Shown piece after piece: positions 30,600-36,326 of a stretch of 41,010 nt of DNA. The translations under genes and the position numbers were made by a program. Position 1 is the first letter of the stretch; each line of letters starts with the position of its first letter. Source of the DNA: Halioglobus japonicus (lineage in GTDB: Bacteria; Pseudomonadota; Gammaproteobacteria; Pseudomonadales; Halieaceae); the NCBI GenBank assembly GCA_902705825.1, contig CACSIL010000002.1, positions 32,988 to 73,997 of the forward strand, written 5' to 3'. The notes below the pieces were generated by a model. That model made no database searches. It was not told the DNA's origin and saw only the letters and a list, made by a program, of their open reading frames with translations.

Positions 30600-31277
30600 A
30601 TGACTACTGAAAGTTTACCGGTACTCGCCATTCTGGGCGGCACCGGAGATTTGGGCACCGGACTGGCCCGCCGTTGGGCACAGGCCGGATACCAGGTGAT
30701 CATCGGGTCACGCACCCAGGAAAAGGCAGAGGCTGCGGTGGCCGACCTGCGCGAGGTTATGGCGGAGCGCGGCGTCGCTGAAATCAGCGTGCAGGCAATG
30801 GAGAACCTGGCAGCGGCTGAGGCTGCCGATATCGTTACGCTCACTGTGCCCTTCAGTCATCAGGCGGGTACGCTGGAACTGGTTAAACCGGCTTTGGCTG
30901 GAAAGATATTGATCGATGTCACTGTGCCGCTGGTGCCGCCCAAGGTTGCACGCGTGCAGTTGCCTGCGCAGGGCAGCGCCGGTCAGATCGCTCAGGAATT
31001 GCTCGGTGAAGACGTAAACGTAGTCTCGGCTTTCCAGAATGTTGCTGCCGCTCATTTGCAGGAAGGGCACGGTTTGGAATGCGACGTGCTGGTGTGCGGA
31101 AACAAGAAGGTTGCGCGCGAGGAAGTCATCAAGCTGGTGGAAGCAGCCGGGATGCGCGGTTTCCATGCCGGGATGATTAACAATGCTGCCGCCGCAGAGG
31201 CTCTGACCTCAGTTTTGATTACCATCAACAAGCAGTACGGGTGTCATGCGGGCATCAAAATCAGCGGGCTGGATTAG
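30600..31277 (+). CDS. npdG: F420H2:NADP+ oxidoreductase (NADPH-dependent F420 reductase)
   Basis: A 225-residue protein with GGGAATAG before ATG 30600. The N-terminal dinucleotide fold is typical of NpdG/Fno: LAILGGTGDLGTGLARR (residues 8-24) and GSRTQEKAE, where serine and arginine bind the phosphate of NADP. Later come VTVPL, VSAFQNVAAAHL and the ending HAGIKISGLD, which follow the archaeal F420-dependent reductase. It passes hydride between NADPH and F420, and in bacteria probably makes F420H2. It is the first gene of npdG-cofE-cofD-cofC-fbiC, 37 bases before cofE. The SDR gene is divergent. Confidence 0.9.
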   Translation: MTTESLPVLAILGGTGDLGTGLARRWAQAGYQVIIGSRTQEKAEAAVADLREVMAERGVAEISVQAMENLAAAEAADIVTLTVPFSHQAGTLELVKPALAGKILIDVTVPLVPPKVARVQLPAQGSAGQIAQELLGEDVNVVSAFQNVAAAHLQEGHGLECDVLVCGNKKVAREEVIKLVEAAGMRGFHAGMINNAAAAEALTSVLITINKQYGCHAGIKISGLD

Positions 31278-31314
31278 CCCCGCGTTTTTGTCGATATAAA
31301 GAGACTCGCTGTAA

Positions 31315-33044: not shown

Positions 33045-33780
33045 GCGGGTGGCCCGGGCACTGCTGCCTCTGAAGGATCTGGTGCAGGCCAAGACGCGTC
33101 TCAGCGGTCTGTTGCGTCCATCGGAGCGTCGCGCGTTGGCTCAGGCCATGGCGGAAGATGTGCTTGAGGTACTGGCAACGCACAGCGAAATTACCGGCGT
33201 CACCCTGGTATCGGATGATCCCGGTGCCGAAATGCTCGCGACGAAATACGGTGCTGAATGCTGGTCGGAGAATTCCCTCGACTGCCGTGGACTCAATCCT
33301 CTGATGCAGCGTGCCACGGCTCGACTACTGGCAACCAGCGAGGAGCCGCTGCTGGTATTGCACTGTGATCTGCCACTGCTGACGGTTGCTGATATCAGCG
33401 CTGCACTGGCATCCCAGCACGATTTGGATGGGCTGGTTGTTGCCTGTGATCAGCAGGGCAGGGGGACCAATCTGCTGGCCTTTACCGCGCACTGTGTGCC
33501 GCAATTCTGCTTTGGGATAAATAGCTGTTCCGAACACGAGCGAAGCGCGCGCAGAGCTGGCTTCCCTGTCGAAATACTGCAAAGATCAGGTATCGCTTGC
33601 GATGTGGATGAGCCGGCAGACCTTGAGTGCGTGATGGATAACCTGCATTTGCGGCCTCACAGCAATACCGCCGCACTGCTTTACAACACCGAACTGGGAG
33701 CACGCATTACACTTGCGTTGGCTACATTGTCAGACAGCGATAAAGCTGTCGACGCTGGAAATAGGGGATTGCACAGTTGA
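33034..33780 (+). CDS. cofC: 2-phospholactate (or related) guanylyltransferase CofC/FbiD
   Basis: A 248-residue nucleotidyltransferase. It starts with TTG 33034 (overlapping cofD by 11 bases) or GTG 33049; neither has a strong ribosome site. The family motif RALLPLKDLVQAKTRLSG lies at residues 8-25, with VSDDP and HCDLPLL as metal-binding strands and a C-terminal DVDEPADLE. The enzyme couples GTP to the three-carbon phosphoacid that CofD then uses. The donor specificity differs between archaea, mycobacteria and some proteobacteria, and is unknown here. The last 20 residues extend beyond the usual domain. Its stop TGA overlaps ATG of the next gene. Confidence 0.92.
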   Translation: MGPERVARALLPLKDLVQAKTRLSGLLRPSERRALAQAMAEDVLEVLATHSEITGVTLVSDDPGAEMLATKYGAECWSENSLDCRGLNPLMQRATARLLATSEEPLLVLHCDLPLLTVADISAALASQHDLDGLVVACDQQGRGTNLLAFTAHCVPQFCFGINSCSEHERSARRAGFPVEILQRSGIACDVDEPADLECVMDNLHLRPHSNTAALLYNTELGARITLALATLSDSDKAVDAGNRGLHS

Positions 33781-36326
33781 TGTCAGATTGGCAGGCATTA
33801 CAGGAGCACTTGCGCCAGGGCATCGCGCCCAGCGATGAGCAGGCTCTGTTATTGGCAGAAATAGACGACACCGCCGCGTTGGTGGAGATTGCGGCAGTGC
33901 TGCGCGATCGCGGCCATCGCAACGTCATTACCTATTCGCGCAAAGTCTTTATTCCGCTGACACACCTGTGCCGGGATGTGTGTCACTACTGTACCTTTGC
34001 GCGCACGCCCAAGAAAATAGAGCAGCCTTATATGCCCGTGGAGGAGGTGCTCGCACTGTGCCATGAAGGCGCGAAAATGGGCTGTCAGGAGGCGCTGTTC
34101 ACACTCGGGGAGAAACCCGAGCTGCGCTACAATGCGGCGCGCCAGGCGCTGCAGGAAATGGGTTTTGCAAGTACGCTGGATTACGTCAAGGAAGTCGCGC
34201 GTCGGGTCTTATCGGAAACAGGGTTGTTGCCGCATATCAATGCCGGATGCATGGATGCGGATGAAATCGCCGGATTACGCCAGGTGAGTGCGTCCATGGG
34301 TATTATGCTGGAGTCCGGTTCAGACCGCCTTTGCCAGAAGGGCATGCCGCACTACGGTTCGCCCGATAAAGAGCCGGCCCGGCGCCTGCAGACGATGGAA
34401 CTGGCTGGGCGCGCTGCTGTGCCGTTTACGTCGGGAATACTTATCGGTATAGGTGAAACCCGCCGCGAGCGTGTTGAATCGCTGCTCGCCTTGCGCCTGT
34501 TGCATTCCAGGCACGGCCATCTGCAGGAAGTCATCATACAAAATTTCCGCGCCAAACCGGGTACGTTGATGTCCTCTGCACCAGAGCCCGATCTGAATGA
34601 ATTACTGTGGACGATCGCGGTTGCGCGGCTTGTCTTCGGGCCAGACATGAATATTCAGGCGCCCCCCAACCTCAGTCCGGGTGTGTTGCCGCAACTCGTT
34701 GCGGCGGGCATCAACGACTGGGGTGGCGTGTCGCCACTGACGCCGGATTACGTGAACCCGGAAGCGCCCTGGCCCCATCTGGAACGACTGGCCGCAGAAA
34801 CGGCTGCCGCCGGTAAATTTCTCGAGCAGCGGCTGACGGTGTACCCCTCCTATGTTGTGGATGGACAGCGCTGGCTGGATGCCGGCGTGGAGACTTCGGT
34901 GATGCGTCTGTCAGACGCCGCAGGCTTCGCACGGCGTGACGACTGGGTACCTGGCGAGGATCATGCTGTGCCCGCCGTTGACGCTCAATTGCTGGCAAGT
35001 GTGCCGGACTCGTCTGCGGTATCCGTTGACGTACTGGATATTGTCGGGCGCGCTCGCAATACCGCGCAGCTGACGGAACAGGATGTGACTCGCCTGTTCG
35101 AGGTGCGCGGGGCAGATTTCTCCTATGTGGTGGCGCAGGCCAACCAATTGCGGAAGGCGGTAAATGGCGAAACAGTGAGTTATGTCGTCAATCGCAATAT
35201 CAACTACACCAATGTGTGTTATTTCAAATGTCAGTTCTGTGCCTTTTCCAAGGGCAAACAGAGCGAAAATTTGCGTGGCCGGCCCTACGATATCAGCGCT
35301 GAGGATATCGCGGCGCGCTGCGTCGAGGCCTGGGAACGCGGCGCTACTGAAGTCTGCATGCAGGGTGGGATCCACCCCGATTACACAGGCCAGACCTACC
35401 TCGATATCGTACACACGGTACGCAGTGTGACACCCCAGATGCACATTCACGCGTTTTCGCCACTGGAAGTGTGGCAGGGCGCTGCAACACTGGGCATCAG
35501 TGTGCCGATGTTTTTGCGCCAGCTGCGCGAGGCGGGGCTCGGTACGCTGCCGGGAACGGCCGCAGAAATTCTGCACGACGATGTCCGTGCGAATCTGTGT
35601 CCCGACAAGCTCAACACCAGTCAGTGGTTGGAGGTGATGGAGGCAGCTCACAATGAGGGGCTGCGCACGACAGCGACAATCATGTACGGCCATATTGATA
35701 GACCTGTGCACTGGGCCAGCCATCTCCTGCAGATCAGGGCTTTGCAGCAACGCACCGGCGGGTTTACTGAGTTCGTGCCACTGCCATTCGTGCATATGGA
35801 AGCGCCCATGTATCTCAAGGGTAAGGCGCGGCGCGGACCGAGTTTTCGCGAGGCTGTGTTAATGCATGCCGTGGCGCGACTGACCTTCCATGGTTTGATA
35901 GACAATATTCAGGCATCGTGGGTGAAGATGGGTAGAGAGGGTGTTGCCGCCTGTTTGAACGCCGGTGTGAATGATCTCGGTGGCTCCCTGATGAATGAAA
36001 GTATTACCCGTGCTGCCGGGTCAGACCACGGTCAAGAGTGGACACCGGCGCAACTGGAAGAGCGTATTCGAGCGGCGGGACGACGTCCGCGGATGCGTAC
36101 GACCCTCTATGCCGATGCCAGTGAGCAGCGACACAATGCGGCATTTGCTGCACCACCGCTGGCCGAGGTTTACAGCGCTTCCGCTGGCAAGCTACAGCGC
36201 AGCAAGCGCATTGGTGAGACCGTCTCTGCTGGCGTCGTGACACAATCTTTGCCACTGACGTGGATGCACTCGCCGCAGGATGCCACCGTGTACGAAAGCG
36301 TGGTGCTGATGGCGGCCTGTAACTGA
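33780..36326 (+). CDS. fbiC: FO synthase, fused CofG-CofH (FbiC type)
   Basis: ATG 33780 overlaps the stop of cofC (TGATG) and gives 848 residues, close to mycobacterial FbiC (about 856). It contains two radical-SAM halves. The CofG part has HLCRDVCHYC (cysteines 64, 68 and 71), and the CofH part has NVCYFKCQFC (cysteines 480, 484 and 487). Each half shows the expected later motifs, such as TLGEKPELRY in the first and MQGGIHPDYTG in the second. The enzyme builds the deazaflavin FO from tyrosine and the pyrimidine intermediate of riboflavin synthesis, the committed step of F420 production. Archaea keep cofG and cofH as separate genes, while actinobacteria fuse them, so this form is bacterial in style. 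Confidence 0.96.
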   Translation: MSDWQALQEHLRQGIAPSDEQALLLAEIDDTAALVEIAAVLRDRGHRNVITYSRKVFIPLTHLCRDVCHYCTFARTPKKIEQPYMPVEEVLALCHEGAKMGCQEALFTLGEKPELRYNAARQALQEMGFASTLDYVKEVARRVLSETGLLPHINAGCMDADEIAGLRQVSASMGIMLESGSDRLCQKGMPHYGSPDKEPARRLQTMELAGRAAVPFTSGILIGIGETRRERVESLLALRLLHSRHGHLQEVIIQNFRAKPGTLMSSAPEPDLNELLWTIAVARLVFGPDMNIQAPPNLSPGVLPQLVAAGINDWGGVSPLTPDYVNPEAPWPHLERLAAETAAAGKFLEQRLTVYPSYVVDGQRWLDAGVETSVMRLSDAAGFARRDDWVPGEDHAVPAVDAQLLASVPDSSAVSVDVLDIVGRARNTAQLTEQDVTRLFEVRGADFSYVVAQANQLRKAVNGETVSYVVNRNINYTNVCYFKCQFCAFSKGKQSENLRGRPYDISAEDIAARCVEAWERGATEVCMQGGIHPDYTGQTYLDIVHTVRSVTPQMHIHAFSPLEVWQGAATLGISVPMFLRQLREAGLGTLPGTAAEILHDDVRANLCPDKLNTSQWLEVMEAAHNEGLRTTATIMYGHIDRPVHWASHLLQIRALQQRTGGFTEFVPLPFVHMEAPMYLKGKARRGPSFREAVLMHAVARLTFHGLIDNIQASWVKMGREGVAACLNAGVNDLGGSLMNESITRAAGSDHGQEWTPAQLEERIRAAGRRPRMRTTLYADASEQRHNAAFAAPPLAEVYSASAGKLQRSKRIGETVSAGVVTQSLPLTWMHSPQDATVYESVVLMAACN

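Follow-up and report, generated by a model that had tools for sequence, protein, structure and literature searches.

Coenzyme F420 is a redox cofactor best known from methanogens and mycobacteria. A 41,010-nucleotide stretch of a Halioglobus japonicus draft genome (the window, G000:C2:32988-73997; genome of 5.05 Mb in 53 contigs, 93% complete) carries five complete open frames, npdG-cofE-cofD-cofC-fbiC, on the + strand at 30600-36326, which form, as judged from their protein families, a standard bacterial F420 operon (Table 1). The original prediction, made from the DNA letters, had named these five genes in one direction; all are present as open frames, and all five proteins exceed the curated NCBIfam cut-offs for their names. 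It had also described overlapping stops and starts, and these were found in the sequence: TGATG lies at the cofE/cofD (32080-32084) and cofC/fbiC (33778-33782) junctions, and cofD and cofC overlap by 11 bases if cofC starts at TTG 33034, the longest reading. The starts of cofC (TTG 33034 or GTG 33049) and fbiC (TTG 33777 or ATG 33780) are ambiguous. Promoter-like sites showed no excess over shuffled sequence (3 observed vs 2.9), terminator-like sites numbered 12 vs 5.0 in shuffles (standard deviation 3.0), and a search for RNA families returned zero matches in 29000-41010.

Table 1. Features of the F420 locus in the window and of related loci in which cofC and fbiC share a frame
Feature	Coordinates	Strand	Assignment and model score
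npdG	30600..31277	+	NADPH-dependent F420 reductase (Fno); TIGR01915 196.4 bits vs cut-off 149.8
cofE	31315..32082	+	F420-0 gamma-glutamyl ligase, 255 aa; TIGR01916 262.4 bits vs cut-off 180.65
cofD	32082..33044	+	predicted to join activated linker to FO; TIGR01819 283.8 bits vs cut-off 257.45
cofC	33034..33780	+	linker-activating guanylyltransferase; TIGR03552 140.1 bits vs cut-off 105
fbiC	33777..36326	+	FO synthase, fused CofG + CofH; NF006687 1152.2 bits vs cut-off 1018
SDR oxidoreductase	29603..30379	-	divergent from npdG; NF005893 (PRK07856 model) 400.6 bits
ung	36344..37048	+	uracil-DNA glycosylase; downstream neighbour outside the pathway
One-frame cofC-fbiC loci	L029:3784-7053; L030:7320-10520; L032:7281-10514; L043:7266-10496; L051:7212-10484; L073:7263-10493		

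Comparison with proteins of solved structure agrees with these assignments. The best solved relatives of NpdG are the F420:NADP oxidoreductases 5n2i and 1jax; those of CofE are CofE proteins, the window protein standing alone without the C-terminal half of FbiB; those of CofD are 3c3d (CofD) and 6uvx (the phosphoenolpyruvate (PEP) transferase FbiA); and those of CofC are CofC and FbiD, the closest being 7p97 from Mycetohabitans. The CofH half of FbiC has aminodeoxyfutalosine synthase as its solved relative. Catalytic signatures, a check that the original prediction had proposed, are retained in FbiC and CofC. FbiC has both CxxxCxxC motifs (residues 65 and 481), and in CofC the FbiD lysine, three aspartates that bind metal and a serine that binds the carboxylate are all present, residue roles being taken from the available text of PMC8764529. 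The operon thus holds an FO synthase with both radical-SAM halves (CofG and CofH), the linker genes cofC and cofD, the glutamate ligase gene cofE and a gene for a putative F420-reducing enzyme, NpdG, in a genome that also encodes candidate F420-family oxidoreductases. In the proposed pathway, FbiC would make FO, CofC would activate the linker with GTP, CofD would couple the activated linker to FO, CofE would attach glutamates and NpdG would reduce F420 with NADPH, electrons presumably flowing in that direction. Family matches and layout support the earlier view that the operon spans FO synthesis, the linker, glutamate addition and exchange with NADPH.

The operon is likely to be long resident in its lineage. 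The search of gammaproteobacterial genomes that had been proposed, with matches counted from 195 bits upwards, found FbiC in 28 of 37 relatives, a number to which the own genome belongs. All 18 sampled genomes of the genus are among them, one with a fragment where its contig ends; a 29th relative with a match of 18.7 bits was left out of the count. In an even sample of the class, FbiC exceeded 250 bits in 15 of 369 genomes, two of the 15 in pieces; the other 93 of the 108 matches (16-36 bits) were read as other radical-SAM proteins. A scan of named genomes gave 589 FbiC loci, and all counts of 45, 34 or 80 loci given here refer to the best 80 of these. Forty-five of them carry cofE, cofD, cofC and fbiC together, 34 carry fbiC without the others in the examined DNA, and one (L090) starts inside a cluster at a contig end. 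The nearest named FbiC, from a Halioglobus metagenome-assembled genome (MAG), is 88% identical. In the full-cluster loci, ung follows fbiC in 22 of 45, and a divergent SDR gene of at least 70% identity precedes npdG in 24 of 45.

Comparison of the base composition of the operon with that of its flanks, another check that had been suggested, gave G+C at third codon positions (GC3) of 0.598-0.659 in the operon genes vs 0.578-0.747 in 11 other window genes, so that the operon is flank-like. Pairwise distances of operon and flanking genes were compared by correlation with 999 permutations. With ung (23 sequences), fbiC gave r 0.689 and cofD r 0.589, no permutation being as high in either case; with nadB (14 sequences), r was 0.656 for cofD and 0.629 for npdG (0 of 999 as high in both) and 0.603 for cofE (1 of 999), the reference flank pair ung-nadB giving r 0.798 (13 sequences). 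Conserved neighbours, flank-like GC3, distances that track those of flanking genes and presence in the whole genus sample therefore point to a resident operon. Two circumstances would favour the view that the operon has no settled role and reflects a recent insertion of foreign DNA or a mistake in the assembly: the draft is split into 53 contigs, and F420 clusters lie on plasmids of other proteobacteria, one of them with identical gene order. This explanation is extremely unlikely, as related genomes have the operon at the same place, between SDR and ung, its GC3 lies within the range of the other window genes and its marker occurs throughout the genus sample; a recent island was rejected on conserved neighbours and base composition. 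The original prediction had spoken of a stable acquisition among ordinary gammaproteobacterial flanking genes. "Stable" is borne out, and acquisition is possible at depth, since a Paraburkholderia plasmid carries the genes in the same order. As to the flanks, the cbb3 genes and nadB were confirmed in the window, but a distance of more than 10 kb separates the cbb3 genes from the operon, whose direct neighbours are the divergent SDR gene and ung.

The plasmid in question, PPGU19_p3 of Paraburkholderia sp. PGU19 (NZ_AP023183.1), carries all five genes of the window operon with order and orientation unchanged, with a stand-alone CofE and an FbiC 62.6% identical to that of the window. It differs in being betaproteobacterial and typed as mobilizable, in having a transposase-type gene beside the cluster and in lacking, in the examined stretch, an ung or SDR neighbour of the window kind. 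F420 genes occur on other alpha- and betaproteobacterial plasmids as well, which together with the shared gene order indicates that F420 clusters can travel. Closer to the window, the clusters of Halieaceae and Zhongshania (HTCC2148, Seongchinamella unica, Parahaliea, Zhongshania antarctica) have its gene set and order, and the Halieaceae clusters also share its neighbours. HTCC2148 and S. unica differ in that cofC and fbiC lie in one reading frame, whereas in the window they are separate and joined by TGATG.

The strongest evidence for use of F420 comes from beyond the window, where the genome holds many genes for putative F420-dependent enzymes. There are 28 matches to Bac_luciferase (PF00296); in an NCBIfam run on 21 of these 28 luciferase-like proteins, 14 passed a model named as F420-dependent, a label that is itself a prediction. 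Five FDOR-A (PF04075) matches were found, three of which pass TIGR00026, while PF04075 is present in 0 of 14 control genomes; five PNPOx_N matches were also found, and none of the four tested passes the F420 model TIGR03618. Among the relatives, FDOR-A is present in 26 of 28 FbiC-positive vs 0 of 9 FbiC-negative genomes (Fisher p 4.4e-7 by genome and 3.3e-4 by genus, relatedness ignored), and luciferase-like genes number 13-36 in 25 of the 28 FbiC-positive genomes and 0 or 1 in the nine FbiC-negative ones. In relatives, luciferase-like genes occur near the cluster in 8 of 45 full loci, which belong to the more distant ones, vs 0 of the 34 loci with fbiC alone. The luciferase-like and FDOR-A oxidoreductases are the proposed users of F420, and it is likely, from gene content, that the cell both makes and uses the cofactor. 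In this respect the genome resembles mycobacteria, whose pathway (FbiA, FbiB, FbiC, FbiD) shares the FbiC fusion, the FbiD-type CofC residue and many luciferase-like and FDOR-A genes; it differs in that no FbiB reductase half was found in the window genome and that Fno lies inside the operon.

Two sites in the same genome hold such genes in groups. The group at L153:6893-12351 (G000:C50:182892-188350), possibly a site of F420 use, combines two FDOR-A genes with an SDR gene, DUF2452, DUF3833 and a PNPOx-like gene. At L154:5042-11997 (G000:C1), two luciferase-like genes accompany a FadD3-like acyl-CoA ligase gene (below the model cut-off) and a thiolase-like gene, possibly for lipid or steroid breakdown. 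From the neighbours of three other FDOR-A genes no clear function emerged.

The fbiC-alone loci offer a comparison within related bacteria. CofD was sought in the whole genomes of 23 of these 34 loci and in three full-cluster controls, the search not reporting the completeness of these 26 genomes; it was absent from 22 of the 23 and present in all three controls. FbiC motifs are intact in the fbiC-alone lineage (loci within L034-L095, genomes G405-G426), which would thus stop at FO and not reach F420. Luciferase-like matches numbered 0-2 in the 22 genomes without CofD and 45, 23, 16 and 9 in the four with it, some of the 45 being fragments or containing stops; in this 26-genome sample the family tracks CofD, not FbiC. 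FbiC as a marker of F420 use was rejected, given the 22 of 23 fbiC-alone genomes without CofD. It might then be proposed that FO is itself the useful product also in the window lineage, for example as a photolyase antenna or a signal, and that the tail genes matter little. The related lineage, in retaining FbiC without CofD, indicates that FO alone can be worth keeping, but in the window lineage cofE, cofD and cofC are intact and retained with fbiC, and the enzyme families follow CofD; this proposal is very improbable.

In a quick FbiC tree (LG+G4, 107 rows; a gene tree, not a species tree), 33 fbiC-alone rows fall on one side of a weakly supported branch (63.6). A node with 100% SH-aLRT unites the fbiC-alone rows with 23 full-cluster rows, mostly titled as Halieaceae genera. 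Of the rows outside this node, the ten closest, which a 98% node joins to it, all represent full clusters. Most simply read, the FO-only condition would be a derived state, reached through loss of the tail genes or transfer of fbiC alone. Neighbours shared by 27-29 of the 34 fbiC-alone loci are NAD(P)-binding-like, membrane and CDP-alcohol-phosphatidyltransferase-like proteins, names given by reading the sequences, not by family search.

The interpretation that we consider probable is that an intact, long-resident operon serves to make F420 from FO, a linker derived from PEP or 2-phospholactate and a glutamate tail, that the product is reduced by NADPH through NpdG and that luciferase-like and FDOR-A oxidoreductases use it. 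Several observations weigh against it. The F420 labels of the luciferase-like models are, as noted, predictions, and the fbiC-nadB distances agree weakly (r 0.523, a value reached in 37 of 999 permutations). In three full-cluster relatives luciferase-like genes number only 1, 1 and 3, and two of the three are without FDOR-A, so that possession of a full cluster need not bring many such enzymes with it. An FbiB-type dehydro-F420 reductase was not found in the 93% complete genome, whose best TIGR03553 match reaches 52 bits vs a cut-off of 249.55, and sub-threshold matches of this kind occur also in 12 of 14 control genomes. Finally, relatives of the genome's seven nitroreductases were found in none of the examined flanks of the 45 full loci.

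The last two points bear on the choice of linker. According to the available text of PMC8764529, Ser or Thr at CofC position 162 is diagnostic for 3-phosphoglycerate (3PG). The window CofC has Gly there, as counted back from the conserved serine, the same as M. tuberculosis FbiD, and 70 related CofC proteins have 55 Gly, 14 Asp, 1 Asn and no Ser or Thr. By this residue, the window CofC is of the PEP/2-phospholactate type, not the 3PG type, and the form of F420 made by Mycetohabitans is therefore not expected. The Mycetohabitans pathway, as presented in the parts of PMC8764529 and PMC11104420 consulted, shares with the window a Gram-negative host and a stand-alone CofE; it differs in its diagnostic Ser162, and Mycetohabitans is reported there (PMC11104420) to lack putative F420-dependent oxidoreductases, of which the window genome has many. 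For the products, PMC11104420 lists [M+H]+ values of 364.11393 (FO) and 790.18149 (3PG-F420-2); by subtraction, F420-2 would be expected near 774.19 and dehydro-F420-2 near 772.17. A 3PG-F420 product would need no reductase, the review PMC8498797 assigns this route to Proteobacteria in the text available, and the UniRef label of a Halioglobus japonicus protein begins "3-phospho-D-glycerate gu"; that very protein has Gly, however, as do all 19 proteins from the search for CofC in long proteins (see below). On the diagnostic residue, 3PG-F420 was rejected as the product and is a most unlikely outcome.

Between the two remaining linkers, PEP appears the likelier. The Gly at the 162/163 position of CofC/FbiD is that of the actinobacterial PEP route, whose other hallmark, an FbiB-type reductase, is missing from the matches. 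As the available text of PMC8498797 describes it, PEP as linker leads first to dehydro-F420, which mycobacteria reduce through the C-terminal half of FbiB. With no such reductase found and no nitroreductase relative beside the operon, the PEP route is one step short, and the reduction of dehydro-F420 would have to fall to an enzyme encoded elsewhere than in the operon, for which the seven nitroreductase-family proteins are possible candidates. The alternative, use of 2-phospho-L-lactate, the linker proposed for archaea, would make the operon complete and the reductase unneeded; the Gly-type CofC fits this substrate as well as PEP, and most CofC enzymes assayed in PMC8764529, in the sections consulted, favour it in vitro. 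The same sections caution, however, that the outcome of the assay depends on the CofD used, and cognate CofD shifted the M. smegmatis and Ca. Entotheonella pairs to PEP; this alternative is possible but rather unlikely. Three options thus present themselves, namely that 2-phospholactate is used, that a distant enzyme reduces dehydro-F420 or that dehydro-F420 is the working form, of which we judge the second likeliest. Accounts of the operon as complete, the term used in the original prediction, hold only if the linker is 2-phospholactate or an unlinked enzyme carries out the reduction. A bolder version of the third option is unlikely: the deazaflavin metabolism of Halieaceae might resemble that of mycobacteria but depend on dehydro-F420 as such, built from PEP by CofC and CofD. 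There would be no dedicated reductase, the luciferase-like and FDOR-A enzymes would have adapted to a linker that stays unreduced, and a sister lineage would have cut the pathway back to FO and would use FO directly.

The operon is of a known kind, in a group for which F420 was not described in the literature searched; an earlier listing of gammaproteobacterial genomes is possible. What appears unusual is the host group, a reduction step without an assigned enzyme and the contrast with a related, apparently FO-only lineage. Halieaceae are described as abundant and cosmopolitan in coastal seawater (PMC10100682), and the main text of that comparative-genomics study does not mention F420, deazaflavin or luciferase. 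PMC8498797 asks, in the text available, for what reason F420 is made by recently identified producers, Proteobacteria among them; the word Gammaproteobacteria was not found in the portion of its main text consulted. Carriers of the operon include the named strains Parahaliea mediterranea DSM 21924, Seongchinamella unica GH4-78 and Zhongshania antarctica DSM 25701, so that production, linker and use are testable, and the lineage with FbiC but without CofD provides a natural comparison of the purpose of F420 with that of FO.

One open frame of 1067-1091 residues comprises both cofC and fbiC in six of the best 80 of 589 loci, including those of HTCC2148 and Seongchinamella unica, and Pfam detects both CofC and FbiC in all three single-frame proteins tested. 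A search for CofC in long proteins scored 7995 candidates and gave 19 protein clusters, of which two are partial; the seven that carry organism names are all from Halieaceae (Halioglobus, Seongchinamella, Pseudohalioglobus, Halieaceae IMCC8485). The available text of the review PMC8498797 mentions only CofG-CofH and CofE-reductase fusions. A cofC-fbiC fusion was not found described in the literature searched, where the one paper combining CofC, FbiC, fused and F420 uses "fused" for cloning. Two changes are required on the tree, but a topology that groups all six in one clade was not rejected (p-AU 0.372), and we make no claim of two independent fusions.

Further observations concern individual loci. 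The SDR gene at 29603-30379 is kept beside the operon also in Zhongshania and Litorivivens and may belong to the F420 system. At L197 (G027:C20), a full cluster in a genome with one luciferase-like gene and no FDOR-A, the FbiC match contains one in-frame TAA; the pathway is perhaps being lost. In G018, the operon FbiC match (L202, G018:C61) covers residues 6-382 only, the CofG half, and is followed by ung; a second, full-length FbiC stands alone elsewhere (L194, G018:C5) and may supply the missing half. CofD was found in phage records once, in a short record with 36% identity. L060 and L083, titled Klebsiella pneumoniae and Verrucomicrobiaceae, have an FbiC that falls among gammaproteobacterial rows, so that these MAG titles look wrong. 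Lastly, an open frame at 38433-38858, between ygfZ and nadB, encodes a putative Cpta_toxin-like membrane protein (Pfam, 30.9 bits, slightly over the cut-off of 27.3) that is conserved in relatives.

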